From Gammaproteobacteria bacterium (GTDB lineage Bacteria; Pseudomonadota; Gammaproteobacteria; JAKDMP01): a DNA stretch of 62,113 nucleotides. The stretch covers positions 1-62,113 of the forward strand of contig JALUYA010000021.1 in assembly GCA_027018875.1 (NCBI GenBank), read 5' to 3'. The notes under the pieces are model-generated. The model did no database searches, was not told the DNA's origin, and saw only the letters and a program-made list of their open reading frames with translations. This document shows, piece after piece, positions 6,184 through 62,113 of the stretch. The first letter of the stretch is position 1. Each line of letters begins with the position of its first letter. Made by a program: the position numbers and the translations under genes.

Positions 6184-7218
6184 ATGGCCGATATATCCTC
6201 CCTTTACCGCGACGCCGGCGTCGATATCAATGCCGGCAATCGCCTTATCGAACGAATCAAGCCCCTGGCGGAATCCACTCGGCGAGCGGAAGTCATGGAA
6301 GGACTCGGTGGTTTCGCGAGCCTGTTCCGCTTCCCCCGGACCCGGTTCCGTGATCCGATCCTGGTCTCGGGAACCGATGGCGTCGGCACTAAGCTCAAAC
6401 TCGCGCTCGAGGCCGGGCGCCTCGATGGGCTGGGACGGGACCTGGTGGCCATGTGTGTGAACGATGTCGCGGTCAGCGGTGCGGAACCCCTGTTCTTTCT
6501 CGACTATTACGCCACCGCCCGGCTACGGATCAACCAGGCCGAGCGCCTCGTTGCCGGTATCGCAGTCGGCTGCCGCGAAGCCGGCTGCGCCCTAGTCGGA
6601 GGCGAAACCGCCGAATTGCCGGGGCTGTATCAAAACGGCGAATTCGATCTGGCCGGCTTCTGTGTCGGCGTCGTCGAACGTGAGGCGCTGATTGACGGAA
6701 AAGCGGTCGAACCCCGCGACGCGGTACTCGGTATCGCCTCCAGCGGGACACATGCCAACGGCTACTCCCTCATTCGCCGGGTTATCGACCAATCCGGTGC
6801 CCGACTCGATCACCCCCTCGGATCACGCACCCTGGCCGACTGGCTGCTCGCCCCGACCACCATCTACGTGCGGGCCATTCGCACCCTGCTCGAGACCGGC
6901 CCGATCCATGCGCTGGCGCATATCACCGGCGGCGGCATCGTAGAGAACCTGCCCCGCGTACTCCCGCCGGGTTGCCGAGCCGTTATCGACCCGGCCGATT
7001 GGCCGCGCCCACAGATATTCGACTGGCTGGCACAAGCGGGCCAGATCCCGGAACCCGAGATGTTCCGTGTCTTCAACATGGGGCTCGGGCTCATCGCGAT
7101 CCTACCCCAAGCCGGTATCGAACCCGCCCGCGCCGGCCTCGCCAAGCTCGGGCTCGATGCCTGGCAAGTGGGTTCCATCGAGCCCGGTGAGCCCGGGGTA
7201 TGCCTCGACCACCGGTGA
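6184..7218 (+). CDS. purM: Phosphoribosylformylglycinamidine cyclo-ligase
   Basis: AIR synthetase, which closes the imidazole ring by ATP-dependent conversion of FGAM to AIR in purine synthesis. The 344-residue length is normal. Family motifs are clear: SLYRDAGVDINAGN at the N-terminus, SGTDGVGTKLKLA for phosphate binding, GGETAELPG, and ASSGTHANGYSL. The ATG at 6184 is chosen over the upstream in-frame TTG at 6178. The 3' end overlaps purN by 19 nt, so the two purine steps are translationally coupled. Confidence 0.96.
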   Translation: MADISSLYRDAGVDINAGNRLIERIKPLAESTRRAEVMEGLGGFASLFRFPRTRFRDPILVSGTDGVGTKLKLALEAGRLDGLGRDLVAMCVNDVAVSGAEPLFFLDYYATARLRINQAERLVAGIAVGCREAGCALVGGETAELPGLYQNGEFDLAGFCVGVVEREALIDGKAVEPRDAVLGIASSGTHANGYSLIRRVIDQSGARLDHPLGSRTLADWLLAPTTIYVRAIRTLLETGPIHALAHITGGGIVENLPRVLPPGCRAVIDPADWPRPQIFDWLAQAGQIPEPEMFRVFNMGLGLIAILPQAGIEPARAGLAKLGLDAWQVGSIEPGEPGVCLDHR

Positions 7219-7859
7219 AAGTCATCGTTCTCGGCTCCGGCGAAGGCACCAACTTCGAGGCTCTCGCCGCCGCCGCAGGCATCGATTACACTATCGCCTC
7301 GGTGGGCAGCGACCAGCCCGAGGCGCGCATCCTCGATCGCGCTCGCCGCCGGGGGATCCCCACCTTCACCTGCACGCGCCGCGACCATCCCGATCGGGCT
7401 GCCCACGACCGGGCACTCGCGCGACTGCTCGCGTCCCGGCACCCCGACTGGATTGCCCTGGCCGGCTACATGCGCCTGCTGGGCCCCGCGGTGCTCGCGG
7501 CCTGGCCGGGACGGATCGTCAACATTCATCCCGCCCTCCTGCCCGCTTTCCCGGGGCTGAACACACACGCGCGAGCGCTGGCCGCCGGCGTACCCGAACA
7601 TGGCTCCACGGTGCACTTCGTTACCGCCGAACTGGATGCCGGCCCCCCGATCCTGCAGGGCCGGCTCAAGATTCGCCCCACAGACACAATCCAGTCGCTG
7701 ACCCACCGGGTCAAGGCCTTGGAACATCGCATCTATCCCCTGGCCCTTGCCTGGCTTGCCCGGGACCGGGTGAAAATGGTACAAGGACAATGCTGGCTCG
7801 ATGGTCGGCCATTGAATACCCCCCCCTCCATCGAAGAGCAGGAACCCGGATGTTGTTGA
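7200..7859 (+). CDS. purN: Phosphoribosylglycinamide formyltransferase
   Basis: GAR transformylase 1, using 10-formyl-THF to formylate GAR in purine synthesis. The 219-residue protein carries the catalytic Asn, His and Asp at about N108, H110 and D146 (VNIHPALLPAFPGL and ELDAGPPILQ). The nucleotide-binding N-terminus reads VIVLGSGEGTNFEAL. It overlaps purM upstream and the DUF3108 gene downstream by 10 nt, consistent with a three-gene transcript. Confidence 0.95.
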   Translation: MPRPPVKVIVLGSGEGTNFEALAAAAGIDYTIASVGSDQPEARILDRARRRGIPTFTCTRRDHPDRAAHDRALARLLASRHPDWIALAGYMRLLGPAVLAAWPGRIVNIHPALLPAFPGLNTHARALAAGVPEHGSTVHFVTAELDAGPPILQGRLKIRPTDTIQSLTHRVKALEHRIYPLALAWLARDRVKMVQGQCWLDGRPLNTPPSIEEQEPGCC

Positions 7860-8641
7860 AAACCTTGCTGCTGACACCGGCGCTGTTGGGCACCGCATTC
7901 ATACCGGCCCTCATCCGGATCGCTTTTGCGTCGGCGCCGCTGCATCCGCCCCTCACGGTAAAGGTTCGCCCGGGCAGGCTGGCCATTCACCCGTTCCGCA
8001 TGCGTTATCTCGTGCTGCGAAACGGCTGGCACCTCGGTAACGCGATCTTTACCTTGATGCCGGGAGAAAACAGCTGGGAATTCCATTCCACGGCAAAGGC
8101 GAGCGGCCTGGCGGCGCTTTTCATCGGCGCAACTTTCTCCGAAACCAGCCGGTTCAGGGTAAACAACGGGCGGTTGCAACCCCTGGCCTACGCCTACACC
8201 GACTCCGGCAACAAGTCCCACGATGAGCGCATCGTCTTCGATTGGCGCCGGGGAGAAGCGCTCGACTTCAAGGGGGCAAAAAGAAAAATCTTCAATATCG
8301 AACCCGGAGTACTCGGCCGAGCGACCGCTCAACTCGATCTCAGTCGCCGCCTACTCGCGGGCAAACGCCCCGGCGGCAGCTATCGCATCGTCAACGGCGG
8401 AAAGCTTGGCACCTACCGGCTTACCCGCAAAAAAAATACGGCCATCGCCACGCCGGCTGGAAATTTTAAAACTGTAGTCCTCGAAAGGAAAGACGCCCAG
8501 TCGCGACGCACCACCACCTTCTGGCTTGCGGGAAAACTACAGTATCTTCCGGTCAAGATCCGCCAAAGCGCCCCCGGCAAGGCCACCGTCACCTTCGTAC
8601 TCGCCAAGTACCGGCGGCTTCCCGCGCCCGGGAAACGCTAA
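7850..8641 (+). CDS. DUF3108 domain-containing exported protein
   Basis: A 263-residue protein with a hydrophobic N-terminal export signal (LLLTPALLGTAFIPALI), followed by a DUF3108-type beta-rich body: MRYLVLRNGWHLGNA near the start and KTVVLERKDAQSRRTTTFWLA near the end. Function is unknown. Proteins of this family commonly follow purN, as here. The ATG at 7850 lies inside the purN end and is preceded by AGGAA. It converges with the MSHA locus, 30 nt away, with no obvious terminator between them. Confidence 0.8.
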   Translation: MLLKTLLLTPALLGTAFIPALIRIAFASAPLHPPLTVKVRPGRLAIHPFRMRYLVLRNGWHLGNAIFTLMPGENSWEFHSTAKASGLAALFIGATFSETSRFRVNNGRLQPLAYAYTDSGNKSHDERIVFDWRRGEALDFKGAKRKIFNIEPGVLGRATAQLDLSRRLLAGKRPGGSYRIVNGGKLGTYRLTRKKNTAIATPAGNFKTVVLERKDAQSRRTTTFWLAGKLQYLPVKIRQSAPGKATVTFVLAKYRRLPAPGKR

Positions 8642-8671
8642 TCAGACCGGACCTTGCCCAGGCGGCGGATA

Positions 8672-11600
8672 TCAGTAGATCTCCTGGAGAAAGATTTGAT
8701 AGGGGGAGCCCTCGTAAAGGCCAAATGCCGCCAACGCGGTGGGGTTTATAAGGGCCGCGGTTCCCTGGTTGGATTTCCAGTCATATTGAAGCCAGCTCGG
8801 AACCTTCGCGGTAACGCTGACACTTCCGGTGTTGCCTGCACCGGGCGGCGACAGGCTCAGCTTGAAGATGCCGGCCGTCGGCGGTTGGGCCAGGCTCGCC
8901 TGGGTCTCCCCGGCACTCAACCCGCCCTGGTAATTGGACAACGACAGGGTAATTCCCGTGGTACAAGAATCGGCGGTGTTGGTGACAAACCCATTGTCGG
9001 CATCCAGATAGTATTGGGCCTGCATCGGCACGGGCAGAGCCAGCAGTTCCGAGCCGTAGGCGTTCTGCAGACGAATGCGCCCATAGCGCAGAGACGCACC
9101 GCCACTGAAAAGGATGGCCGAGAAAGTCACCGGGTCCGGGGTGCTCTTGACGCCGTCGAGATCCACAACCTGCTGCGACAAGGTGGGCGAGGCGTTGAAC
9201 GGCGCCTCGGGGGTGGCGGGCGGTGCGGGTCGCGTGTAGTCGAGTCCCGCCCCGGCACTGAAGTTCAGCGTTGCAACCCCCGGCGAAGGATTGGCGATCA
9301 CCGGGTTGGCACCGTTCGCCGTGAGCCCGGCGGTGTCGATCGGGTGGCCGCCGGCATCGGTATAGACCGTGGCCGGAAGACTCTTGAGCCGAAACCAGTC
9401 CGCTCCTCCCTGGCGGGTGAAGTTGTAGTAGTTTTTGGTGATACCGCCCTGGACGTTTTCCGCCGTAAGCGTCGCCACCGGTTTGGTCTGATAAAAAAAC
9501 GGCTGCCCCAGGTAGGTGAAGCCGGGAGTCGAGCTGGTGCAGGCGGTGGCAAATTGCGGGGTATTGAGCGATACCGCAAAATGATCCGGAATAAAACGCC
9601 CGACCGGCGTACTTGATCCACCGACGATCGCATTGACACTGCCGAGATAATTCTTTGCCGCGGCCTGCAGCGTCACGCTGCCAACCTCGGAGTAGGATGC
9701 CTGCGTCGCGGTCGCGGCGCCGCCGCTCCAGTCCGACTGCGCCAGGCTCCCCCCGGTAAGCGCTCCGAGCGTTCCCTGGGCGGGCGTAAAGGGTACGACC
9801 GCGGATAACGCCGTGGCCCAGGCGAAATGGGGCGTTACGCTCCGCCCGGCGGCGTTGACCGGACCGGTTGGAATACCATTTGCGGGATCCCCGCTCTGCC
9901 ACAGCACGGCCTCGAGCGTTGCACTGAAAGACCGCCCCGCCACGGTGAATACGGCAGAGGTGGGCGTGGTGCCCCCGGGGTTGGCGGTAGCGCCGGCCTG
10001 GATGGCGGAAAACGCCAGGGCGAACGGCCGTACGGTGAGCACGTTGGACGAGCCGATAATGGGGCGCGCCGAGCCGTTGGTGTTCTGTGCAAACCCGCTG
10101 GTGTTGTCTTCGAAGTCGATGCTGTACTGCCCGACATCGGTGGTTGCCAGGCTGAAGTTGGCAACTCCGTTGCTGAAGGCAATAGGCAGGTTGTTGGCCG
10201 CCGGCGCGGCATTGCCAAGCGCCACGCCGGAAATCGTGGGGGCGTTGCCCCCCGGATCATTCGCGCTGCGCTGGATCCAGGCCTTGACCGAGTTGACATC
10301 GTAGCCCGGTGCCGGACCACAGTTTCCGCTCGTCGGGTCGCGGCGGATCATTTCAGCCCTGAATGCCCCCGCTCGCCCGGCCACCACCACCCCCGCGCCA
10401 TCGGCCGGTGGGGTGGTTTGGGTAAACACAAAGGCATTGTCGCGGAACTGGACGGTGCCACTCTGGCCAACGATCGTTCTTGGCGGGTTGGCGGTCACCA
10501 GGGTACCGTTAATAGTAAGATTATCGGCATGGACATCGGCGAGTGCAAATTGAGCGGTGCCGTTGTCCGCGGCGGCATACTGATAAGTCGCCGTACCGCT
10601 ATCCGCGGGGCCGGGCGTGAACGTCCCATTGCCGGAGACCAATGTCCAGTTGCCGTGGCCCGAAGTAGTGGCAAGGTTCAGCGTGCCGGTCGTCGCCACC
10701 GGATTGCCCTGGGGATCCAGCGCGGTCACCGTGACCGTGTCGGGGACACACGTCGAAGCATTCAACGACGCGGTGATTTGCAAGGATTGCACGGGTACCG
10801 CCTTGACCACCTGTACCACATATTCCAATCCAACGTAATAGTCATACAAAGTGCAATAAAAATATCCGGGGAAAGTGTTTGGATCACAGCTCGATCCACC
10901 GTAATTGACACCATCTCCCATAAGGTAATCAATGGTGAAGGTGCCTGTTTTAGTAAATGTATACGCCGGTTGGGGCGCCGCGCTCCCTGTCTGGCAAGGC
11001 CCTTGCCCCCCGGGAAACCACTGCGAAACGGTCGATCCACCTGGCAGGTCGAATTCGTTGTACCAAGCATTGGCATAAGCCGGTAAGGTCGGGCAAGATG
11101 TGGGGACCGGGTAGTCCACTCCGAAGCTGACCTTGGTGCCCACGGTGACGGTAAGCGGATTGGTGTAATACTTTTGCCCATTAATCAATCCGAATATTTT
11201 GGCTTGTATGCACGAGCCGACGCAAACCGTTAAAAACGCCGTCATCACCTCCACGTCCGGCGTGCAACTGCTGGCCTTATTGCAACGCTTAGCGGTCCAT
11301 AACTGATACTGTATAACGTAGGTTCCGGTATTGTTGAAGGTGTAGGTCGGTGGATAAGATGCGTAGCCTTGCTGGCAAGGACCCGTGGTTCCCTTGGGGT
11401 AAGCCAAGGAGGCAGATCCGCTCGGGGACACTGCGCCGGGCGAGATGAAATTATCCCACCAGCCATTGTCGCCCTTGAGTAAGGTCGGGCAGGTTCCGGA
11501 ACTGTAGATCGCGCTAACCGTAACCTGCGCTCCTAGCGGCACGGTAATTTTATTCGCCCCCGAATTATTCCCCCAAGTGCCCGTCATGGTGATGGTGGCG

Positions 11601-52132: not shown

Positions 52133-52380
52133 TCGATAAATACCGATGGTATTCGTGGCTCACTGAAAGGGGGTACTTCGTATGGTGACACCGCTTCGCG
52201 GTATCGCCAGTCCGCCGGCGCTCCGCACCGAGGGGAATACACAAGAGTGCGCATCACAGAGCGGCTCGGGACACGGGGCACCGCAGAGCGGAGCCACGAG
52301 GCGAATCCAGTGTGAATCAGAACGAAAACCCAATCATTTACTCATAAGTCAGTAGATTAGGGAACAAATGGCATCAGCTA
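52133..52380. other. Intergenic region left of the IS element
   Basis: No gene is seen. The 14-mer TCCGCCGGCGCTCC at the end of thiI (52115-52128) recurs at 52211-52224. Small inverted repeats (ATACC-GAT-GGTAT near 52142; ACCGC-TTC-GCGGT near 52191) lie between the copies. The right part is AT-richer and may once have been the pel upstream region, now cut off from pelA by the IS. Confidence 0.4.
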
Positions 52381-53447
52381 GTGTCCAATCCGACATGAAT
52401 ATTGATGGTCGCACATTGACCCGCGAGACGCTGGCAGCGATGCGCTTCATGGCGCTGGACCGGATGGCGGAAGGCGAGTCGCCGGCGGCGGTCTCGGCGT
52501 CGTTCGGCATGCACCGGACCTGGGCGTACAAGGTGCGGTTGAAGGCGCGAGGCCGGGGCAAGGGCAAACGTGCGGTGCAATTGCGCAAGGCACCGGGGCG
52601 ACGCCGGACGCTGACGGATGCGCAGGAGCGTCAGGTGTTTCGGTGGGTGAACGGCAAGAACCCGCGCCAGTACGGTTTTGACTTCGGGTTGTGGACGCGC
52701 CGGATCGTGGCGGAGTTGATCACCCGGCGCTTCGGGGTGAGGTTGAGCTTGGCCTCGGTGGGTGTGCTCCTGGCCAGGGTCGGGTTGACGCCCCAGAAAC
52801 CCCTGCAGCGGGCCTATCAACGAGATCCGGAAGCCATCGCGCGCTGGCAGCGGGAGACCTACCCCGCGATCGCACGCCAGGCCAAGCGTGACAGGGCAGA
52901 CATCTACTTCTGGGACGAGTCCGGGTTCCGCGCCGATGCGGTGCACGGGAAGACTTGGGGCGCCAAGGGCCAGACCCCCGTGGTGGACGTGCCGGGCCAA
53001 CGCCAGGGCATCAGTGCCGCCTCGGCAGTCAGTGCCAAGGGGGCGTTCTGGTTCACCACCTACAAGGGGGGGCTGAATGGAGACTTGTTCGTGAGCTTCC
53101 TGCGACGCCTGATGCGGGGTCGGCGCAAGCCCCTGCACCTGATCCTCGACAACCTGCCCGCGCACAAGACCCGCGCCGTCAAAGCCTACGTCGCCAAGCT
53201 GAAGGGCAAGTTGTCGTTGCACTTCCTGCCCGGCTACGCACCGGAGCTGAATCCGGATGAGTTGGTCTGGAGCCACGCCAAGCGCACCGGCAACGCCCGC
53301 CGCCCGCTCCGCGCTGGCGAACGACTCGAAGACCGCATCCAGTCCCAGTTGGCCGATATGGCTGCTCGGCCGGATCTGATTCGTTCGTTCTTCAGGCATC
53401 CAAGTGTTGCCTATATTGCTGACTGCTGAGTAAGTCGGATTATGTAA
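52381..53447 (+). mobile_element. IS630-family insertion sequence
   Basis: An insertion of about 1067 bp bounded on both sides by TA (52379-52380 and 53448-53449), the IS630/Tc1 target duplication. Each end has AATCCGAC six bases inside the TA in inverted orientation (52387-52394, and its complement at 53434-53441). The wider terminal repeat is imperfect, so the exact ends are tentative. It carries one intact transposase gene. It lies 12 nt before the first ATG of the pelA frame. Confidence 0.72.
52395..53429 (+). CDS. IS630-family DDE transposase
   Basis: A 344-residue transposase. An N-terminal helix-turn-helix (MAEGESPAAVSASFGMHRTWAYKVR) is followed by a second DNA-binding region and a DDE catalytic core: YFWDESGFR, LILDNLPAHK and PELNPDELVW. 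All three acidic residues are present and there is no frameshift, so it may be active. The ATG at 52395 is chosen because it lies inside the inferred left end; the upstream ATG at 52368 is outside the element, although it has a better ribosome-binding site. Confidence 0.88.
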   Translation: MNIDGRTLTRETLAAMRFMALDRMAEGESPAAVSASFGMHRTWAYKVRLKARGRGKGKRAVQLRKAPGRRRTLTDAQERQVFRWVNGKNPRQYGFDFGLWTRRIVAELITRRFGVRLSLASVGVLLARVGLTPQKPLQRAYQRDPEAIARWQRETYPAIARQAKRDRADIYFWDESGFRADAVHGKTWGAKGQTPVVDVPGQRQGISAASAVSAKGAFWFTTYKGGLNGDLFVSFLRRLMRGRRKPLHLILDNLPAHKTRAVKAYVAKLKGKLSLHFLPGYAPELNPDELVWSHAKRTGNARRPLRAGERLEDRIQSQLADMAARPDLIRSFFRHPSVAYIADC

Positions 53448-53460
53448 TAATTAATTCGCT

Positions 53461-56418
53461 ATGCAAAGCAATAGGATCAAGCTATTCCCCGCACATAGTA
53501 GATTACTTTTCTTTATTACTAACAAACGATCTATTGCACCTGGAGCGCATCTCGGCCGCTACGGTTCGCTCCCGTGGGGCCGACTGGCGGTGGAACTGCT
53601 TGCCGGTTTTTTGATAAATCAGGCATTGGCCAGCATACCAACAGTTGCCTTTTATTATGGTAACCAGCCTCCGGCAAGTGAACTACACGCCTTCAACTGG
53701 GTGGTAGTGCAGCCCTCCGCCCGAATCAAACCAACCCGCTACGACCAGACTCACTCGCACCTGTTTGCCTACGTCTCAGTGGGTGAAGCCGATCCCGGAA
53801 GCCGGACGGCAAAACGCCTGCCGAAGGCCTGCGTAGCGGGGCAAGATCCCATATGGAAAGGAAAAATCATCAACCAGGCGCTCCCTCGGTGCCGTAATTT
53901 CTACCTCAATGACATTATCGCCCCGCTTTGGAAGCAAGGTTATCGGGGGTTTTTTTTCGACACCCTAGACTCCTATCGCCTGATCGCCCACGATCAGGCG
54001 GCCCGCGAGGCCTATCGCCACGGACTGATTGATCTGGTGCGGGCCACTAAGCAGCGTTTCCCGCGAGCAAAGTTGATCTTTAACCGCGGTTTTTCTATTC
54101 TGCCGGCCCTCAAGGGAATGGTCACCGCCGTCGCCGCGGAATCACTCTACGATGGCTGGGATCAGTCGACTCAACGCTACTTCAAGATATCGCCCGGAGA
54201 GCGCCGGGCGCTTACCAAGGCACTGGCGCAAGTTCAGGCAATGGGGCTGCCGGTCATCGTCATCGACTATCTCCCCGCCGCCGCACGTGAACAGGCAAGG
54301 CAGGACGCAGCACGCATCGAACACGACGGCTACATCCCTTATATAACCAATGCGGAACTCGACATCGTCGGCGTCGGCACCCTTGATGTACTACCCCGGA
54401 AAATCCTTATGCTCTACTCCGGCACAGAGGACAATATCTATACCAATCTGAACTGGTACGCCCAGATGCCCCTCAACTACCTGGGCTATGCAACGCACAT
54501 CGTCAATGTTCAGAATGTATCCCTGCCGCGGCACCCGCTGACCGGTGAATACGCGGGTATCGTCACTTGGTTTGATTCGAATCACATTCCGCAAGCCACC
54601 AAGGTCTACCGCTTTCTGCGCACCCAGATCGAGGCCGGCGTACCGGTGGCGATACTCGGCAACTTCGGCTTCCCCTTGGACCGGGCTCATCTCGCACCGC
54701 TCGGCCTCGCCCTAGGCACCGCCCCCCGGGACTTCCTGCCGGCAAAACCGGTACGCATCAATCGTAACCTGGTGGGATTCGAGACCGAACCCTTGCCCAT
54801 CCCCAACGATTTTCTACCGCTTCGGCTCCGGCGTGGCCGAGCGCTTGCCGAAATCTCGGTAGGCACTAGCCGCGGCACCGAAGTCGCGATCACGCCCTGG
54901 GGTGGCTACGCGCTCGATCCTTTCGTGGTACAGGGACTCCCCCGAGGGACCCTCGCGCGCAACAACCGCCAGGCGGTGTGGATCCTTGATCCTTTCCGCT
55001 TCTTTCGCCGTGCCCTGCGCCTGCCCATCGCCCCGGTACCCGATACCACCTCGATCAACGGCCGACGGATGCTCTTTGCCGAAATCGACGGCGATGGTTT
55101 CGCGAGCGGCAGCTGGATTTTCCGTTACCACGATTGGCCCGCCGCCCGGGTGATCCTAGATGCCGTGCTGAAACGCTTTCCAACAGTGCCGGTAGCGGCC
55201 AGCGTAATCGCCTCGGAATTCACCGACTCCGGCCTCTACCCGAACCGAAAGGTCGCCCACATCCAGCCCATCGCCCGGCACATTTTCCGCCTGCCCTGGG
55301 TGGAAATCGGCACGCATACCTATTCTCATCCCTTCGACTGGCCGGCGCTCGAACACAACCCGAACCTGAGTGCCGGCCTGCATCTCAACAAGGACCAGGA
55401 CGAACACCACACGCAGCACGACATCAAGATCCAGGGGCTTGAGTACGGCTACAACCTGCCGGTTCCGGGTTACCGCTTCAGCCCCAAGATGGAAATCACC
55501 GGCTCAATCGACATTATCAACCGCCTACTCGCCCCGCCCGCAAAGCGCGTCACCATCATCCAGTGGTCCGGCGACACCGACCCCGATGCCGCGGTTCTGG
55601 GAATCGCCTACCATGATGGGGTAATGAACATCAACGGCGGCAACAGCACCATCACTCGCAACAGTCCCTCGCTCACCAACGTCGCACCGTTGGGCATCTG
55701 GAAAGGTCGTTACTTTCAGGTCTTTGCCCCCGCCGCTAACGAAGATCAATTTACCCACGGATGGCACCCCCCCTATTGCGGCTTCGCTCGGGTCATTCAG
55801 ACTTTCGAGATGACCGCCAAGCCGCGACGGCTGCAGCCGATCGATATCTACTACCACTTCTACTCCGGTGCCCGGCCCTGTGCCCTCAAACAACTCGAAG
55901 CGGTTTATCGCTGGGCGGTAAAACAGCCGACCACTCCGGTTTTCCCGTCCACCTACGCGCGCGTCGTGCTCGGTTTCGAGCATGTCGTCCTTGCCCGAAA
56001 GGGTAAGGGTTACCTCGTTCGTGGCTATGGCGACGACCAGGAACTACGTATTCCCGCGGCTCTCGGCTACCCGGATCTCGCTCGCAGCATAAACGTCCTC
56101 GGCTATACCGATTATGCCGGCTCGCGCTACATCCATCTTGGTCCGGGCGGCAATGCCTATCTGGTGCTTACTTCCTCGCCTCCGAAACGGCCCTTTCTGC
56201 AATCGGCCAATGCCCGCGCGGTGGCCTTTCGCCGCACCCCCGACGGGTTCGATCTCACACTGCGGGGACATGCACCGCTACGACTGGAACTCGGTAACAC
56301 CTCCGGCTGCAGCTTGTATCGGCAAGACGGCACCGTGGTAAAGGGAGTCCGTCGGCTTCAAGCAATCGCCTATCGCCTAAAGGCCCATGCGAACCGGTTC
56401 CGCCTCCGCTGCCGCTAA
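53461..56418 (+). CDS. pelA: Pel polysaccharide hydrolase/deacetylase PelA
   Basis: A 985-residue periplasmic bifunctional enzyme of Pel exopolysaccharide production. The N-terminal glycoside hydrolase domain starts at IPTVAFYYGNQPP and has the catalytic Glu at E227 (AAESLYDGW). The deacetylase domain has EIDGDGF (D543/D545) and the zinc ligands H619 and H623 (GTHTYSHPF). The signal peptide is probably LAVELLAGFLINQALA, yet the frame begins about 40 residues earlier in AT-rich DNA with no ribosome-binding site, directly after the IS. The true start is uncertain. The 3' end overlaps the next gene by 32 nt. Confidence 0.9.
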   Translation: MQSNRIKLFPAHSRLLFFITNKRSIAPGAHLGRYGSLPWGRLAVELLAGFLINQALASIPTVAFYYGNQPPASELHAFNWVVVQPSARIKPTRYDQTHSHLFAYVSVGEADPGSRTAKRLPKACVAGQDPIWKGKIINQALPRCRNFYLNDIIAPLWKQGYRGFFFDTLDSYRLIAHDQAAREAYRHGLIDLVRATKQRFPRAKLIFNRGFSILPALKGMVTAVAAESLYDGWDQSTQRYFKISPGERRALTKALAQVQAMGLPVIVIDYLPAAAREQARQDAARIEHDGYIPYITNAELDIVGVGTLDVLPRKILMLYSGTEDNIYTNLNWYAQMPLNYLGYATHIVNVQNVSLPRHPLTGEYAGIVTWFDSNHIPQATKVYRFLRTQIEAGVPVAILGNFGFPLDRAHLAPLGLALGTAPRDFLPAKPVRINRNLVGFETEPLPIPNDFLPLRLRRGRALAEISVGTSRGTEVAITPWGGYALDPFVVQGLPRGTLARNNRQAVWILDPFRFFRRALRLPIAPVPDTTSINGRRMLFAEIDGDGFASGSWIFRYHDWPAARVILDAVLKRFPTVPVAASVIASEFTDSGLYPNRKVAHIQPIARHIFRLPWVEIGTHTYSHPFDWPALEHNPNLSAGLHLNKDQDEHHTQHDIKIQGLEYGYNLPVPGYRFSPKMEITGSIDIINRLLAPPAKRVTIIQWSGDTDPDAAVLGIAYHDGVMNINGGNSTITRNSPSLTNVAPLGIWKGRYFQVFAPAANEDQFTHGWHPPYCGFARVIQTFEMTAKPRRLQPIDIYYHFYSGARPCALKQLEAVYRWAVKQPTTPVFPSTYARVVLGFEHVVLARKGKGYLVRGYGDDQELRIPAALGYPDLARSINVLGYTDYAGSRYIHLGPGGNAYLVLTSSPPKRPFLQSANARAVAFRRTPDGFDLTLRGHAPLRLELGNTSGCSLYRQDGTVVKGVRRLQAIAYRLKAHANRFRLRCR

Positions 56419-57367
56419 ACGTGAGCGCCTCGTCTCGCCGTGGCTGATTGCCGGGCTTTTCGGAGCCACAATCTTCGCCTTCGTACTCCTGTTTCCGGCA
56501 CCGGCACTCAAGCGCGAGCTGGCCAGGGCGCACTCGGTCAATGCCGTGATTCTCGACTATTTACAACTGCTGGTGCGCGCCAGCCCCCAGGCACACCAGG
56601 CCCGGCTGCTGTTGGCGAAAAAGGCACTCCAGGTCCATGATACGGCGCTCGCCAAGGTCGCACTGGAACCCTGGCTGAGGCAACCGATTGCGGATGAAAC
56701 CCGCCGGGTCGGCCGCCTCCGGCTCGAACTGGAACACAACCTGGTGTACTCAAGTCCCGCTGGAAGCGCGACCCGCAACGAACGCATCACCCGTTGGAGT
56801 CACATGCTCAGGGCCTTGCGACCACGGCTCGGCTACGATCAACTGATCGCTACGGCGCACAATGCAAGGGCATTGGGGCTCTACCGTGATGCCGCCACGC
56901 TGGCCTTCATGGCAATCCACCGTACCCACGATGCCAACGCTCGGCGCCAAGCCTTCCGGTACGGCCTCGCGAGTCTCGTCGCGGGAAATCTCCCCGGTCG
57001 CGCGCTAAAGGCGGCAGCGAGATACCGATCTGCGGTTCCAATGACCGCAGACCTCTGGGTGTACCTCGCCCAGATCGCGCTTGCGGCCAACGCCGCGGAA
57101 CAGGCCGCGGCGTATGAGTTACATTACCTCGCCGTCACGACCACACCCCAAGGCCGGCGCCGGGCACTGCTGGCGGCACTGCGTGCCCTGATAGCGGCCG
57201 GCCGACCCTGCGCCGCCCTGGCCACAGCCGCTATCTATCTGCATCGAATACCCCCCGATGCCGCCCTGTGGCGGTTTCTGACCCGACTGGCCCTCGCTTC
57301 CGACCGTCCCCGGCTGGCCGCGCATTATGCGGCTTATCTGGTAGGATTGACGCAGCCCGGCACATGA
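56387..57367 (+). CDS. pelB: PelB N-terminal part: membrane anchor plus TPRs
   Basis: A 326-residue protein with one transmembrane helix at about residues 19-37 (WLIAGLFGATIFAFVLLFP), then helical TPR-type repeats. The region LKRELARAHSVNAVILDYLQLL resembles the start of PelB. In Pseudomonas PelB is one protein of about 1200 residues with anchor, TPRs and outer-membrane barrel; here it ends in a stop before the remaining TPRs. The stop overlaps the next gene in ATGA, so the two halves are translated in tandem. The TPRs should bind PelA in the periplasm. Confidence 0.82.
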   Translation: MRTGSASAAAKRERLVSPWLIAGLFGATIFAFVLLFPAPALKRELARAHSVNAVILDYLQLLVRASPQAHQARLLLAKKALQVHDTALAKVALEPWLRQPIADETRRVGRLRLELEHNLVYSSPAGSATRNERITRWSHMLRALRPRLGYDQLIATAHNARALGLYRDAATLAFMAIHRTHDANARRQAFRYGLASLVAGNLPGRALKAAARYRSAVPMTADLWVYLAQIALAANAAEQAAAYELHYLAVTTTPQGRRRALLAALRALIAAGRPCAALATAAIYLHRIPPDAALWRFLTRLALASDRPRLAAHYAAYLVGLTQPGT

Positions 57368-60147
57368 AGCTGCACCATGTCATTGCCGGCATTCTCCTGG
57401 CAACAAGCTTCTGGGCCGCAGCGGGAATGGCAACGCCCATGCGAGTGACGGCGGTGGATCGCGAACTTGCCTGGCGGGCATTCCTCGGCGCCGGTAGGCT
57501 TCGATACGCCTACCGGCTCGCCCTGGATGTAGTGCATGCCGAGCCGGGCAACATCACCTGGATGAAACGCTTGGCCCACGTGGCGCTCGCCAGCGGACAT
57601 TCCGATACCGCCCTAGCGGTGTACCTGCGATTAACCCGCGACGGATACCCTGGCTATCTCGACCGTGCCATCGATCTCGCCAGCGGCCTCGGCGCGACCA
57701 AGCAACTGGTCATCCTTTTGGAAATCAAACTCCGTCACTCCCCCTTTTTGCAACCGCTGTGGATGGAAACTCTCGGCGCCTTGCGCAGCCAGAATAAGAC
57801 CAACCAAGCGGTTCGGATATTGCAGGCGGCCGACCGGCGCCACCCTCGACGATTCTTCCTGTGGGAACAGGTTGTGCTTTACCATTCCCTCGGCGAGCCG
57901 GATAAGGAGCTGCAAATCTTGCAGCAATACCGGGAGCGCTATGGCCCCGAACCCAAAGTCATGCTCCAGATCGCAACCTTACGGTTCACCCGCGGCAAGA
58001 TCCTGGCCGCATATCACGCTCTTTTTACCGCTCGTTCCCGGGCGCAGGACCAAGACGTACTCTACTGGCACACTCTCGCAGCGCTCGCCTGGCTCACTCA
58101 GGATTACGCCACGGCCCGCGAGGTGAGTACCTTGCTATACCGCCATGGGGAAGCAAATGCAAACGATCTCCTCCACCTCATTCTCCTGGTGCAGGCCAGG
58201 CATCCACGCACAGCCTTCCGAATCGCCGCTTACGGCTGGCACCGCTACCGCCAGGCGAGTTTCTTCCTTGCCATGCTCGCGACGGCCTCGAGCCTGAACA
58301 ACGCCGCACTGCGCGCCCGCGCGTTTGACATGCTCCGCCCAGCCGACCTTCCCCGACTCACATCATCCGCCTTTTTCTGGACCAGCCGGGCCCACTATCT
58401 GCTCGGGCGTGGGGATACCTCCGGGGCACTCGAGGCCTACCGCCGCGCCATTGACCTCGCCCCGAGCGACGAACGGATCGCGGGTTATGTCTGGCTGCTG
58501 GTCGAGGCCCGGCAACGAGAAAAACTGCGTGCACTTTTGCCCCGGCTCGATGCCAAGGCCGGTGACCATCCCGTGCTATGGCCGCCGCTTGCGGCCGCCC
58601 ACGCCATCATCGGCCAGGCGCGCTCTGCACTCAATTACCTACAGTCCGAATACCCTCGGCGGCGGAACAATCCGCTGTGGCTGCTAAACTACGCCGCGGC
58701 ACTCACCCAGGCCGCCGCACCACGTGAGGCCTTGCGGATCCGCCGCCGTGCACTCGTGCTCCTGGCCCGTGCCCACCCCCTGACACCGAAAGCCCGGCAA
58801 GCGCAACGGGAAGCGCTCACCCGATTGGCAGTCGCGCTGACACCCGGAAACCCCGCGCTCGCCTTCATAAAACGCCTTGCCACCCATCCTAATCAGCCGC
58901 AATCCCGAGAGATTATCCTCACTTGGGCGCTTGATCGGAATGCCTACCCACTTGCCCGGTTCTGGTGGCTGCATGCCTACGCCTCGCATCCACCCGAAGT
59001 CCGGCAACGCCTCGCCCTCGCGCTCGGCGAACAGGATGATCCAGCACTCGGCGCGTTGCTCGCCCGCGATGCCTATCGCCTGTCCTCCGCCGGGCGCGCG
59101 AGTGCGGCAGATCGTCTGGGTTGGACTCCCCGGGTAATCAGCAACAGTTGGGCGGGCCTGGAACAGAATTCCGCCGACCCCGGGCTCACCCGCCAATTCG
59201 CCAACACCGCCATCGAACAGGCCGACTCGGCAGGAAGCGACCTTGAGGGGCTGCATGCCAGCGGGCTCGAGAGTCTAGCGCTCGATACCCGGTTCGATGC
59301 CTGGCTATCCCCGGGAACACACTTGAGTATCCGGCTCAGCCAGGCGCAACAGAGGATCTACGATATTACTCAACTGGGCACAATCCCTCCCACCAGCCGC
59401 GTCCTCGATATCGAGCTGCAACGAAGACTACAACGAGGCGCCATCCGCCTTGAAGCCGGGGTCGGACGAAGTCTCGGCGGCTATGGTAAAGCTGGACTCA
59501 GTTGGAAAAATCACTGGACGCAGCGTTTGAGTACGACTCTGGGCGCCTATTACGGCCTGCAGCCACTGGCAAGCGTTCCTTTATACCTTGCCGCCGAGGA
59601 GAATCGCATCCGTTTCAGTGCAAACTATCAGGCCGATCGACGCAACCACCTGAGCACCGAGCTGTATCGGGCCCAATATCGCGCCCAGGGCGGTGGTCGT
59701 CTTGGCGATACCCTGGTACTCAACTTCGGTTTTAGTCACCGACTTCATTTCATCGCCCCCATACTCAACCTTAATGCCGAGCTTACCGGCGCCCGTTTCA
59801 CCCGCGCCACAACTCTCCCACAATCCCTGCGCTCCCTGGTGCCCGCGGGGCAGGCACCCGCGATAAATTTTTTCATCCCCCGGAACTATCTACAGATCTG
59901 CACCGGCATCAGCCTCAATACGACGTACCGGCTCGCCTACACCCCCCGGCTGGCGCCTATTGTCCGGGCCGGGCTCTGTTATAACAGCATTTACAGCGGC
60001 GGCTACCAACTGGAAGTGGGCCTTGCCCTGCCGGTGTTCGGCCCGGATCATCTCACTCTCATGGCCGGTCTGGAACAGGGCGGTGCCGACATCACCGGCC
60101 GCAGCGAGACAATCCGCCTGAGCTACCGCTACTATTTCACCCTATAA
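57364..60147 (+). CDS. pelB: PelB C-terminal part: TPRs plus outer-membrane barrel
   Basis: A 927-residue protein with its own Sec signal peptide (MKLHHVIAGILLATSFWAAAG). More than ten TPR-like helix pairs follow to about residue 560. The last 330 residues form a 16-strand-type beta-barrel ending in LSYRYYFTL, whose terminal aromatic fits the outer-membrane assembly signal. This should be the Pel export pore. A 4-nt overlap joins it to the anchor half. Together the halves total about 1250 residues, near the normal PelB length. Confidence 0.88.
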   Translation: MKLHHVIAGILLATSFWAAAGMATPMRVTAVDRELAWRAFLGAGRLRYAYRLALDVVHAEPGNITWMKRLAHVALASGHSDTALAVYLRLTRDGYPGYLDRAIDLASGLGATKQLVILLEIKLRHSPFLQPLWMETLGALRSQNKTNQAVRILQAADRRHPRRFFLWEQVVLYHSLGEPDKELQILQQYRERYGPEPKVMLQIATLRFTRGKILAAYHALFTARSRAQDQDVLYWHTLAALAWLTQDYATAREVSTLLYRHGEANANDLLHLILLVQARHPRTAFRIAAYGWHRYRQASFFLAMLATASSLNNAALRARAFDMLRPADLPRLTSSAFFWTSRAHYLLGRGDTSGALEAYRRAIDLAPSDERIAGYVWLLVEARQREKLRALLPRLDAKAGDHPVLWPPLAAAHAIIGQARSALNYLQSEYPRRRNNPLWLLNYAAALTQAAAPREALRIRRRALVLLARAHPLTPKARQAQREALTRLAVALTPGNPALAFIKRLATHPNQPQSREIILTWALDRNAYPLARFWWLHAYASHPPEVRQRLALALGEQDDPALGALLARDAYRLSSAGRASAADRLGWTPRVISNSWAGLEQNSADPGLTRQFANTAIEQADSAGSDLEGLHASGLESLALDTRFDAWLSPGTHLSIRLSQAQQRIYDITQLGTIPPTSRVLDIELQRRLQRGAIRLEAGVGRSLGGYGKAGLSWKNHWTQRLSTTLGAYYGLQPLASVPLYLAAEENRIRFSANYQADRRNHLSTELYRAQYRAQGGGRLGDTLVLNFGFSHRLHFIAPILNLNAELTGARFTRATTLPQSLRSLVPAGQAPAINFFIPRNYLQICTGISLNTTYRLAYTPRLAPIVRAGLCYNSIYSGGYQLEVGLALPVFGPDHLTLMAGLEQGGADITGRSETIRLSYRYYFTL

Positions 60148-60164: not shown

Positions 60165-60698
60165 ATGTACCGTCGTTCCACGCGCTTTGTCATCATATTC
60201 ACCGTACTCCTGCTTCTTGGCGCCTGTGCCAATTCGAGCCTGCACAGCGCCCCTCGACCTACATTGAATCCGGCCTCCCCGTGGACGGTACTACCGTTTA
60301 CCAACAACACCACCACCCCTTATGCCGGCGCTCGGGCACAATACCTTACTGTGGGACTCCTCGGCAGCCTGGGTGCCAATACGGGCGAATTACCGCCTCC
60401 CGCGACTCAAGCCTCACCACTGGCACTCACGCAAAACGCACAAAGTATCACCGCAGGGATCGCTTGGGCCCGTACCCAGCGCATCCGTTATGCCCTCACC
60501 GGCAGCGTCGACGAATGGCGTTACAAGATCGGACTCAGTGGGGTGCCCGCGGTAGGCCTGACCCTGCGCCTAATCGACGTGCCCAGCGGTAAGACCCTGT
60601 GGACGGCGACCGGATCGGCCACGGGCGAGAGCGATGAAGGCCTTGCGGTGCTGGCTCAGCGAACCCTGGAAAAACTGTTACGCCGCCTGATCCATTGA
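60165..60698 (+). CDS. pelC: Pel outer-membrane lipoprotein PelC
   Basis: A 177-residue lipoprotein. The signal ends LLLLGA before C21. The body matches PelC: WTVLPFTNNTTTPYAGARA near the start and TGSVDEWRYKIGL in the middle. In Pseudomonas it forms a dodecameric ring at the periplasmic face of the PelB pore that funnels Pel. AGGAGA precedes the ATG. It overlaps pelD. Confidence 0.92.
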   Translation: MYRRSTRFVIIFTVLLLLGACANSSLHSAPRPTLNPASPWTVLPFTNNTTTPYAGARAQYLTVGLLGSLGANTGELPPPATQASPLALTQNAQSITAGIAWARTQRIRYALTGSVDEWRYKIGLSGVPAVGLTLRLIDVPSGKTLWTATGSATGESDEGLAVLAQRTLEKLLRRLIH

Positions 60699-62032
60699 TC
60701 TCCCCGCCACGATTCGCTCTACCACGCTCGGTCACCCGCTGGGCGGTTCTCGAAGCCGCGGTTTTTCCGACCGTGGCTCTCGCGCTAGCCTATGCGCTTA
60801 ATCCACGGCTTGCAATCGGGCCCCAAGTCATTCCCTGGCTGTGGCTTGCGCCGCTGCTTGTGGCCCTGCGCTACGGACTGGGTCCGGGCCTGGAGTCGGC
60901 TGCCGTCCTGATACTGGGCAGCTTCCTGATTCGCGATGTCGCACCCAAGATCGAACCCTGGCCGATACTGCCCATGCTTGCCGGACTGTTGACCACGCTG
61001 TTCGCCGGCCAATACGGCTCCTGGTGGATCGACCGTTTACGCCGATCCGAGTTACGAAGCGAATATTTCGGAGAACGCATCGAGGCAATCACTCGCGCCT
61101 TTTACGTTACCCGCATATCACATGATCTGCTTGAGCAAAGCCTAATCACCCGGCCGACCAGCCTGCGCACGGTATTCGTATTCCTACGCAAGCTACTCAA
61201 CGAACATGAGGGCCGGCTGGATAACCGCAGTGCCCAGGCTCTGCTTCAGGTTCTTGCCAACTACTGCCGCATCGAGGCTGCATCTCTTTACGGTGTCCGC
61301 CACTCGGAGATCGACCCACAGCCGCTGGCAAGCATCGGCCCGGACCACACACTGGATCTCTCCGATCCGCTGGTTCATCAAAGCCTGGAGGATTCCGCCG
61401 CCGCCTATTATGGCGTCGATGAACTGTTAATAAAAAATAATGAAAGCCGTTATCGGCTAAGCGCGCCGCTACACGCAAGCGATGGCACCCTACTCGGTTT
61501 ACTCGCGGTAAGCGATATGCCCCTACTTGCGCTGGAGGAAGAAAATCTTCTTGCCCTCGCCGCCATTATCGAATATTACGCCGACGAGGCCTGGGCTCGC
61601 CGACGAGCCAATGATTTGCTACGCCAGATCCCCGACTGTCCACCAAACTTCGCTTGCGAAATCATTAAACTCACACGGCTTCGCGTCGCGGTAGGATTAC
61701 GCTCAACTTTGTTACGCCTACGGGTTCCCATCGATCGAGCCGAGGATATTTTCAAATACATTAACGATACCCGCCGCGGACTCGATCTGTACTGGAGGCT
61801 AAGCGACTCGCAAGATTACGGCTGGCTCATCCTGCTTCTTCCCCTATCTACCCGAACGGCAACAGACGGCTATCTGAGCCGGCTGGATACTCTGTTTGAA
61901 AAACGTCTGGGTGCCGGGCTCCAAGCCTTGGGCTGCCGCTTCGAGCACGGGGAACTGAATGGAGATGATCCGATGTCGATAATTCAGGCTCTTTTGAATT
62001 CCGAGTGGGTTAATGTGCCACATGCGGGTTGA
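60695..62032 (+). CDS. pelD: Pel c-di-GMP receptor PelD
   Basis: A 445-residue inner-membrane receptor. About four N-terminal helices are followed by a GAF domain (residues 145-310) and a degenerate GGDEF domain. The c-di-GMP site is complete: R361-G-L-D364 and R396 match the RxxD and distal Arg of Pseudomonas PelD (R367, D370, R402) at constant offset. Binding is required there for Pel synthesis. The start is TTG, overlapping the pelC stop. The last codons lie within or beside a second transposon. Confidence 0.92.
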   Translation: MISPPRFALPRSVTRWAVLEAAVFPTVALALAYALNPRLAIGPQVIPWLWLAPLLVALRYGLGPGLESAAVLILGSFLIRDVAPKIEPWPILPMLAGLLTTLFAGQYGSWWIDRLRRSELRSEYFGERIEAITRAFYVTRISHDLLEQSLITRPTSLRTVFVFLRKLLNEHEGRLDNRSAQALLQVLANYCRIEAASLYGVRHSEIDPQPLASIGPDHTLDLSDPLVHQSLEDSAAAYYGVDELLIKNNESRYRLSAPLHASDGTLLGLLAVSDMPLLALEEENLLALAAIIEYYADEAWARRRANDLLRQIPDCPPNFACEIIKLTRLRVAVGLRSTLLRLRVPIDRAEDIFKYINDTRRGLDLYWRLSDSQDYGWLILLLPLSTRTATDGYLSRLDTLFEKRLGAGLQALGCRFEHGELNGDDPMSIIQALLNSEWVNVPHAG

Positions 62033-62113
62033 GTTTCGAGAAGTCGAGCTTGCCGGCCAGGAGGAAGATCACGGTACGGATCGTGGCGAACTTGGTGTAG
62101 CCACGTGCTCTGC
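61996..62113 (-). mobile_element. Second insertion sequence at the pelD 3' end (partial, left edge approximate)
   Basis: The transposase fragment implies an insertion sequence continuing past the right edge. Its left end must lie near or below 62010, inside the pelD reading frame. No terminal repeat can be proved without the other end. It would separate pelABCD from any pelEFG genes. Confidence 0.45.
62010..62113 (-). CDS. Transposase C-terminus (partial)
   Basis: The minus strand encodes R-A-R-G-Y-T-K-F-A-T-I-R-T-V-I-F-L-L-A-G-K-L-D-F and a short tail ending in TAA at 62010-62012. The pattern, a positively charged ARGY segment followed by TVIFLLAGKLD, looks like the end of a DDE-type transposase, possibly of the ISL3/IS204 group, but I cannot fix the family from so little. 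It overlaps the last codons of pelD in the opposite direction. Confidence 0.55.
   Translation of the reverse strand, partial: RARGYTKFATIRTVIFLLAGKLDFSKLNPHVAH

Follow-up and report, generated by a model that had tools for sequence, protein, structure and literature searches.

A two-gene form of the Pel exporter PelB, divided at one homologous site and shared by many bacteria

The window, i.e. the whole stretch of 62,113 nucleotides analysed here, is an entire contig (C21) of a gammaproteobacterial genome and includes part of a pel operon in which pelB is present as two genes (Table 1). Within it, PelA and PelD were recognized by Pfam matches and PelC by position and lipobox only, while pelE-like, pelF and pelG genes are found on a second contig of the same genome (C23). 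Neither a second pelB1 nor a second barrel copy was found in a search of the genome. The operon is bordered by an IS630-family transposase gene (52368–53429) which ends 31 bases 5′ of the pelA start and may cut the operon off from its promoter. Directly after pelD, C21 terminates in a repeat (62033–62113) present at five genome sites; the end of the pelEFG contig (11462–11612 of locus L040) is a different repeat with seven genome sites. Given the flanking IS630, the terminal repeat following pelD and the location of pelEFG on another contig, the operon may have been interrupted between pelD and pelE by an insertion in this genome.

Table 1. Features of the pel locus (positions in the window)
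Feature	Position	Strand	Evidence and remarks
pelA	53461..56418	+	985 aa; Pfam GH114 (GH114-type hydrolase domain), E 2.6e-17; directly 5′ of pelB1, likewise in relatives
pelB1	56387..57367	+	326 aa; ORF, inner-membrane anchor and N-terminal TPR solenoid; homologous to the N-terminus of single-chain PelB
pelB1 membrane helix, residues 18–35	56438..56491	+	AlphaFold2 helix; hydropathy maximum from residue 20
ATGA overlap (pelB2 start and pelB1 stop)	57364..57367	+	Sequence
pelB2 predicted Sec signal peptide, 23 residues, cleavage after GMA	57364..57432	+	Sequence; shuffle test p 0.023; low pLDDT
pelB2	57364..60147	+	927 aa; TPRs, alpha-rich stalk, outer-membrane barrel; TPR_15 and PF24604
16-stranded PelB barrel, pelB2 residues 620–925	59221..60138	+	PF24604 at residues 620–924; model strands 621–925
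pelC-like lipoprotein gene	60165..60698	+	ORF, LLGAC lipobox; weak GNA1162-like match only; assigned mainly from position
pelD	60695..62032	+	TTG start; PelD_GGDEF PF16963, E 1.2e-23

Both pelB frames are open over their full lengths and share four bases, ATGA, inside the operon. This confirms an earlier note, made from the sequence alone, which had described pelB as two genes joined in this way; as it had also stated, the two products together span one normal PelB. We call this PelB a variant because the inner-membrane anchor and the barrel are carried not by one polypeptide but by the products of two overlapping genes. The longest ORF in the pelB2 frame begins at a GTG at 57268 and the frame is open from 57118. 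The ATG at 57364 appears preferable as the start since it supplies a signal peptide and agrees with the arrangement in relatives. With pelB2 in the −1 frame and both frames open together for about 250 nt, a programmed −1 frameshift at the overlap could be imagined to yield some full-length PelB besides. This is very unlikely: a fused protein would have no use for a second signal peptide, and a slippery heptamer was looked for at the overlap and none was seen, on which ground we rejected it.

The AlphaFold2 model of PelB1 (pLDDT 90.9, 18 helices) places a TPR-like solenoid after the N-terminal helix. The solenoid finishes on a complete helix pair, i.e. its last TPR is whole, and in a fold search its best PDB match was a consensus TPR superhelix. 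The N-terminal helix aligns with the N-termini of single-chain PelBs and is predicted to remain uncleaved. The PelB1 subunit differs between loci in its number of TPRs: that of the window and that of a related locus, L044, are about 60 residues longer than those of their nearest relatives, the equivalent of about two extra TPRs inserted.

PelB2 begins with MKLHHVIAGILLATSFWAAAGMA/TP, a Sec-like signal peptide whose signal-peptide-like score exceeds that of shuffled sequences, and residues 1–26 are the only stretch of the model with a pLDDT below 50. The TPR scaffold ahead of the barrel gives a TPR_15 match (E 2.8e-56) and the barrel itself matches B-barrel_PelB_C (PF24604) with an E of 3.7e-49 and 168 bits, the cut-off being 31 bits. 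The best structure match of the modelled PelB2, with its 16 strands, is the solved PelB chain 9h80_M (TM 0.81 by target). The alignment column of the conserved aromatic gate residue, Tyr-1103 or Phe, holds Tyr842 in PelB2 and Y or F in 25 of the 29 split loci described below. Models, Pfam matches and signal score agree with the earlier assignment of an anchor and TPRs to the first protein and of a signal, TPRs and the barrel to the second.

PelB of Pseudomonas aeruginosa (PDB 9H80 and 5WFT; PMC12141448, PMC12022489) has the same components, an inner-membrane helix, a TPR scaffold, an alpha-rich stalk and a PF24604 barrel, and its genes follow the same pelA-B-C-D order. It differs in that its 1193 residues form one chain, which makes a tight turn at the point where the window's PelB is cut, and in having no second signal peptide. 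Since direct sequence searches of the PDB with pelB1 or pelB2 gave no match, the site was mapped via a Pseudomonas-type PelB homologue in register with 9h80_M. The junction could thus be placed on the P. aeruginosa protein, as had been proposed, at about residues 281–291. When 26 split loci were aligned with single chains (84 PelBs in all), every break point fell within columns 537–569. Residues 1–36 of P. aeruginosa PelB form the inner-membrane helix, residues 69–726 comprise TPRs 1–19, of which TPRs 9–14 bind PelA, and the crystal fragment covers TPRs 8–11 (PMC12022489); in our mapping this fragment occupies about residues 320–436, just downstream of the break. Using these published TPR limits for the numbering, we infer that TPR6 and TPR7 flank the break, which would leave the PelA-binding TPRs downstream of it and all parts known to hold PelA and PelC on PelB2. 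The kink that AlphaFold3 places after TPR8 (PMC12022489) is close to this site, not at it.

PelB loci for comparison were obtained from PF24604 searches of relatives and of the class and phylum, from a scan with a PelF alignment and from a draw of the Pelotalea phylum. Contig scanning with pelB2 alone found no relatives, whereas the PelF alignment did recover them. Loci on short contigs or with no resolved pelA (L051, L077, L082 and others) and those with frame breaks elsewhere in pelB (L087, L090, L124) were dropped from the counts, leaving 87 comparable loci, the window included. This sample is skewed towards the window's kin, most loci having been ranked by PelF similarity. In it, pelB is split in 29 of the 87 (window counted), always at one homologous site. 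The genes overlap in all 29, by 4 nt (NTGA) in 25 and by 1 nt in four, and the second gene has a hydrophobic N-terminus in every case. By shuffling, the signal-peptide-like score reached p<0.05 at 24 of the 29 split junctions compared to three of 41 linkers of single-chain proteins. Among the carriers are Trichlorobacter thiogenes ATCC BAA-34 and Pelotalea chapellei DSM 13688, both isolates, as well as Geobacter-like genomes, Rhodanobacteraceae, unnamed proteobacterial MAGs and a group of Burkholderiales labelled Curvibacter and Hylemonella. In a sample spread evenly over the window's class, six of 13 other resolvable loci had a split pelB; the statement that PelB is normally a single protein is correct for Pseudomonas but does not describe this sample. 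The Pelotalea phylum draw gave a split at all four PelB loci above the cut-off, two of which are probably from the same genomes as L073 and L109.

These observations bear on whether a single pelB was simply broken in this genome by a sequencing error or a recent frameshift mutation. Two overlapping frames which jointly make one PelB would fit such an event, and breaks of this kind do happen, as the frame break inside the second gene of the related L044 illustrates. The proposal is nevertheless extremely improbable: a signal peptide is not expected from a random frameshift, and the same break, overlap and signal-like N-terminus recur in 28 other loci, those of T. thiogenes and P. chapellei among them. 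The conserved relatives refute it and make the resequencing that had been suggested unnecessary for ruling out an error. The search for the same break in PelB homologues, also suggested, has revealed a junction of the same kind at the same site in 28 further loci, far beyond chance. Split PelB is therefore a real and fairly common variant, common to many bacteria, and not a one-off accident. The window exhibits all features of the split clade: the break at the inferred TPR6/TPR7 site, overlapping genes and a predicted signal peptide on the second gene.

Single-chain PelBs present two different states at the same site. Those of Pseudomonas and other Gammaproteobacteria have a tight TPR turn, while others, mostly from Betaproteobacteria, carry a variable linker of 28–354 residues. 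The first helix downstream of the site contains the motif LA[YW]..FL in split as well as linker forms but not in the Pseudomonas type. With only three of 41 linkers passing the shuffling test, a firm claim that linkers in general are relic signal peptides was rejected. Next to the Curvibacter split group, three of four linkers (L110, L134 and L071) include signal-like stretches ending in A-x-A, although the score of L071 (p 0.064) is slightly above threshold; these have the look of convincing signal relics, a suggestive pattern which was picked out post hoc. The single-chain PelB of Burkholderia sp. 8Y (L098) has about 354 residues of low complexity, with NAVNA-like repeats, precisely at the split site.

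The direction of change was addressed with a PelF tree, which is independent of PelB and was rooted with PelF from Deinococcota and Alphaproteobacteria; long branches and possible transfer of operons between phyla limit how far it can be read as the history of the operon. Tight single chains are basal on this tree. Split and linker forms together constitute one clade (support 100/99), and the window lies inside an all-split clade of 23 rows (support 99/97). L117/L095/L127 and L083/L135, two smaller sets of split loci, are placed within the linker forms by the PelF and the PelB tree alike. To judge from these phylogenies, the break is old and shared, handed down within a clade of pel operons. 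Rooted in this way, the tree speaks for a single-chain ancestor of the PelB family, so at least one fission is likely to have occurred. A fission, as in the earlier note, is likely, but nothing supports a fresh one peculiar to this genome: the break is common to a well-supported clade spanning two phyla and to two other groups.

What happened inside the split and linker clade can be read in two ways. The split may be the older state in this wider clade, the betaproteobacterial linker chains being secondary fusions of two genes. This is a serious possibility, if somewhat short of probable: the linkers lie exactly at the site, vary greatly in length and share the LA[YW]..FL motif with split forms, the L110, L134 and L071 stretches adjoin split loci on the PelB tree, and a single frameshift suffices to join overlapping genes. 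Against it, the overall frequency of signal-like linkers is about that expected by chance and, when changes are weighted equally on the PelB and PelF trees, a linker ancestor followed by three breaks is equally cheap or cheaper. Alternatively, the ancestor of the clade may have been a single chain with a long flexible linker, broken independently two or three times, an option we regard as quite conceivable without favouring it. The nesting of the two smaller split groups among linker forms is what it predicts, but a signal peptide and the same stop–start overlap would have had to arise afresh at every break.

Under either history, the PelB of the window is fairly probably a two-subunit exporter of old, inherited architecture in which the polymer would be handed over at the TPR6/TPR7 boundary. 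The uncleaved N-terminal helix of PelB1 would hold the first TPRs at the inner membrane. PelB2 would be exported separately by the Sec pathway and insert its barrel into the outer membrane, bringing along the remaining TPRs and, with them, the stretch corresponding to where PelA and PelC bind in P. aeruginosa PelB. The overlap of stop and start codons probably couples translation, favouring near-equal amounts of PelB1 and PelB2. The polymer would pass from PelB1 to PelB2 through a non-covalent contact in which the two TPR solenoids meet end to end or transiently, and the pair would act together in Pel export. The earlier prediction of an inner-membrane TPR subunit and a free outer-membrane subunit is retained to this extent: one product is predicted to be anchored and the other to be exported on its own. 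Similar pairings of a TPR protein with an outer-membrane polysaccharide barrel are AlgK with AlgE of the alginate system and the single-chain BcsC and PgaA. AlgK and AlgE illustrate that a TPR protein and a barrel can function as separate chains. AlgK is an outer-membrane lipoprotein, whereas the separate TPR part of the window, PelB1, appears anchored in the inner membrane, and some TPRs remain on the barrel protein PelB2. A wider generalization, which we consider rather doubtful, is that PelB as such consists of two modules, TPRs 1–6 as an inner-membrane receiver of the polymer belonging functionally to the PelDEFG synthase and an outer-membrane module holding PelA and PelC; the covalent bridge across the envelope proposed for Pseudomonas would then be dispensable, handover would occur at TPR6/TPR7, and in some linker chains cleavage at a relic signal might even turn the product of one gene into two chains.

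Splitting of pelB as such is already known: the legend of Fig 5 in Bundalovic-Torma 2020 (PMC7112194) refers to "pelB fission" in aquatic thermophilic species. These resemble the window in having pelB as more than one gene, and the legend itself gives no break site, signals or phylogeny. Our literature search, which covered few subscription papers, found nothing on where the break lies, on the second signal or the overlap, on the linker series or on how widely the split form occurs. The pel operon of Acidithiobacillus thiooxidans is expressed in biofilm, deletion of its pelD alters the biofilm, and an epimerase gene follows pelG (PMC5852609). One split locus, L046, likewise has an epimerase-family gene after pelG, a likeness which gives only a hint that split pel operons work. 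Structural work has recently raised the possibility that both membranes are bridged by a single PelB chain (PMC12141448). That a widespread natural form is cut at a single fixed position, ahead of the repeats which bind PelA, means that such a bridge need not be covalent, and suggests that the exporter need not be a single unbroken chain across the cell envelope; the split site also indicates where PelB could be cut or rejoined in order to test the bridge idea.

Several loci depart further from the usual arrangement. At L046 (reverse strand; oriented coordinates 6200–10211) pelB is apparently in three parts of 286, 547 and 504 aa, the third with its own signal-like start and both junctions being ATGA. 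Its sister L048 (about 65% identical) is unbroken at the position of the second break and has a hydrophilic stretch there. At L044 (oriented 7503–10315) the frame break in the second pelB gene lies in the TPR region and reflects either gene decay or an error of assembly. The divergent pel locus L065 encodes a PelB of only about 617–634 residues together with a short PelA-like ORF of about 317. Finally, the pelFG locus on a plasmid of Cereibacter azotoformans (L156) has no annotated pelB and includes a gene for a "polysaccharide biosynthesis/export family protein", which suggests that another outer-membrane exporter works with PelF and PelG.
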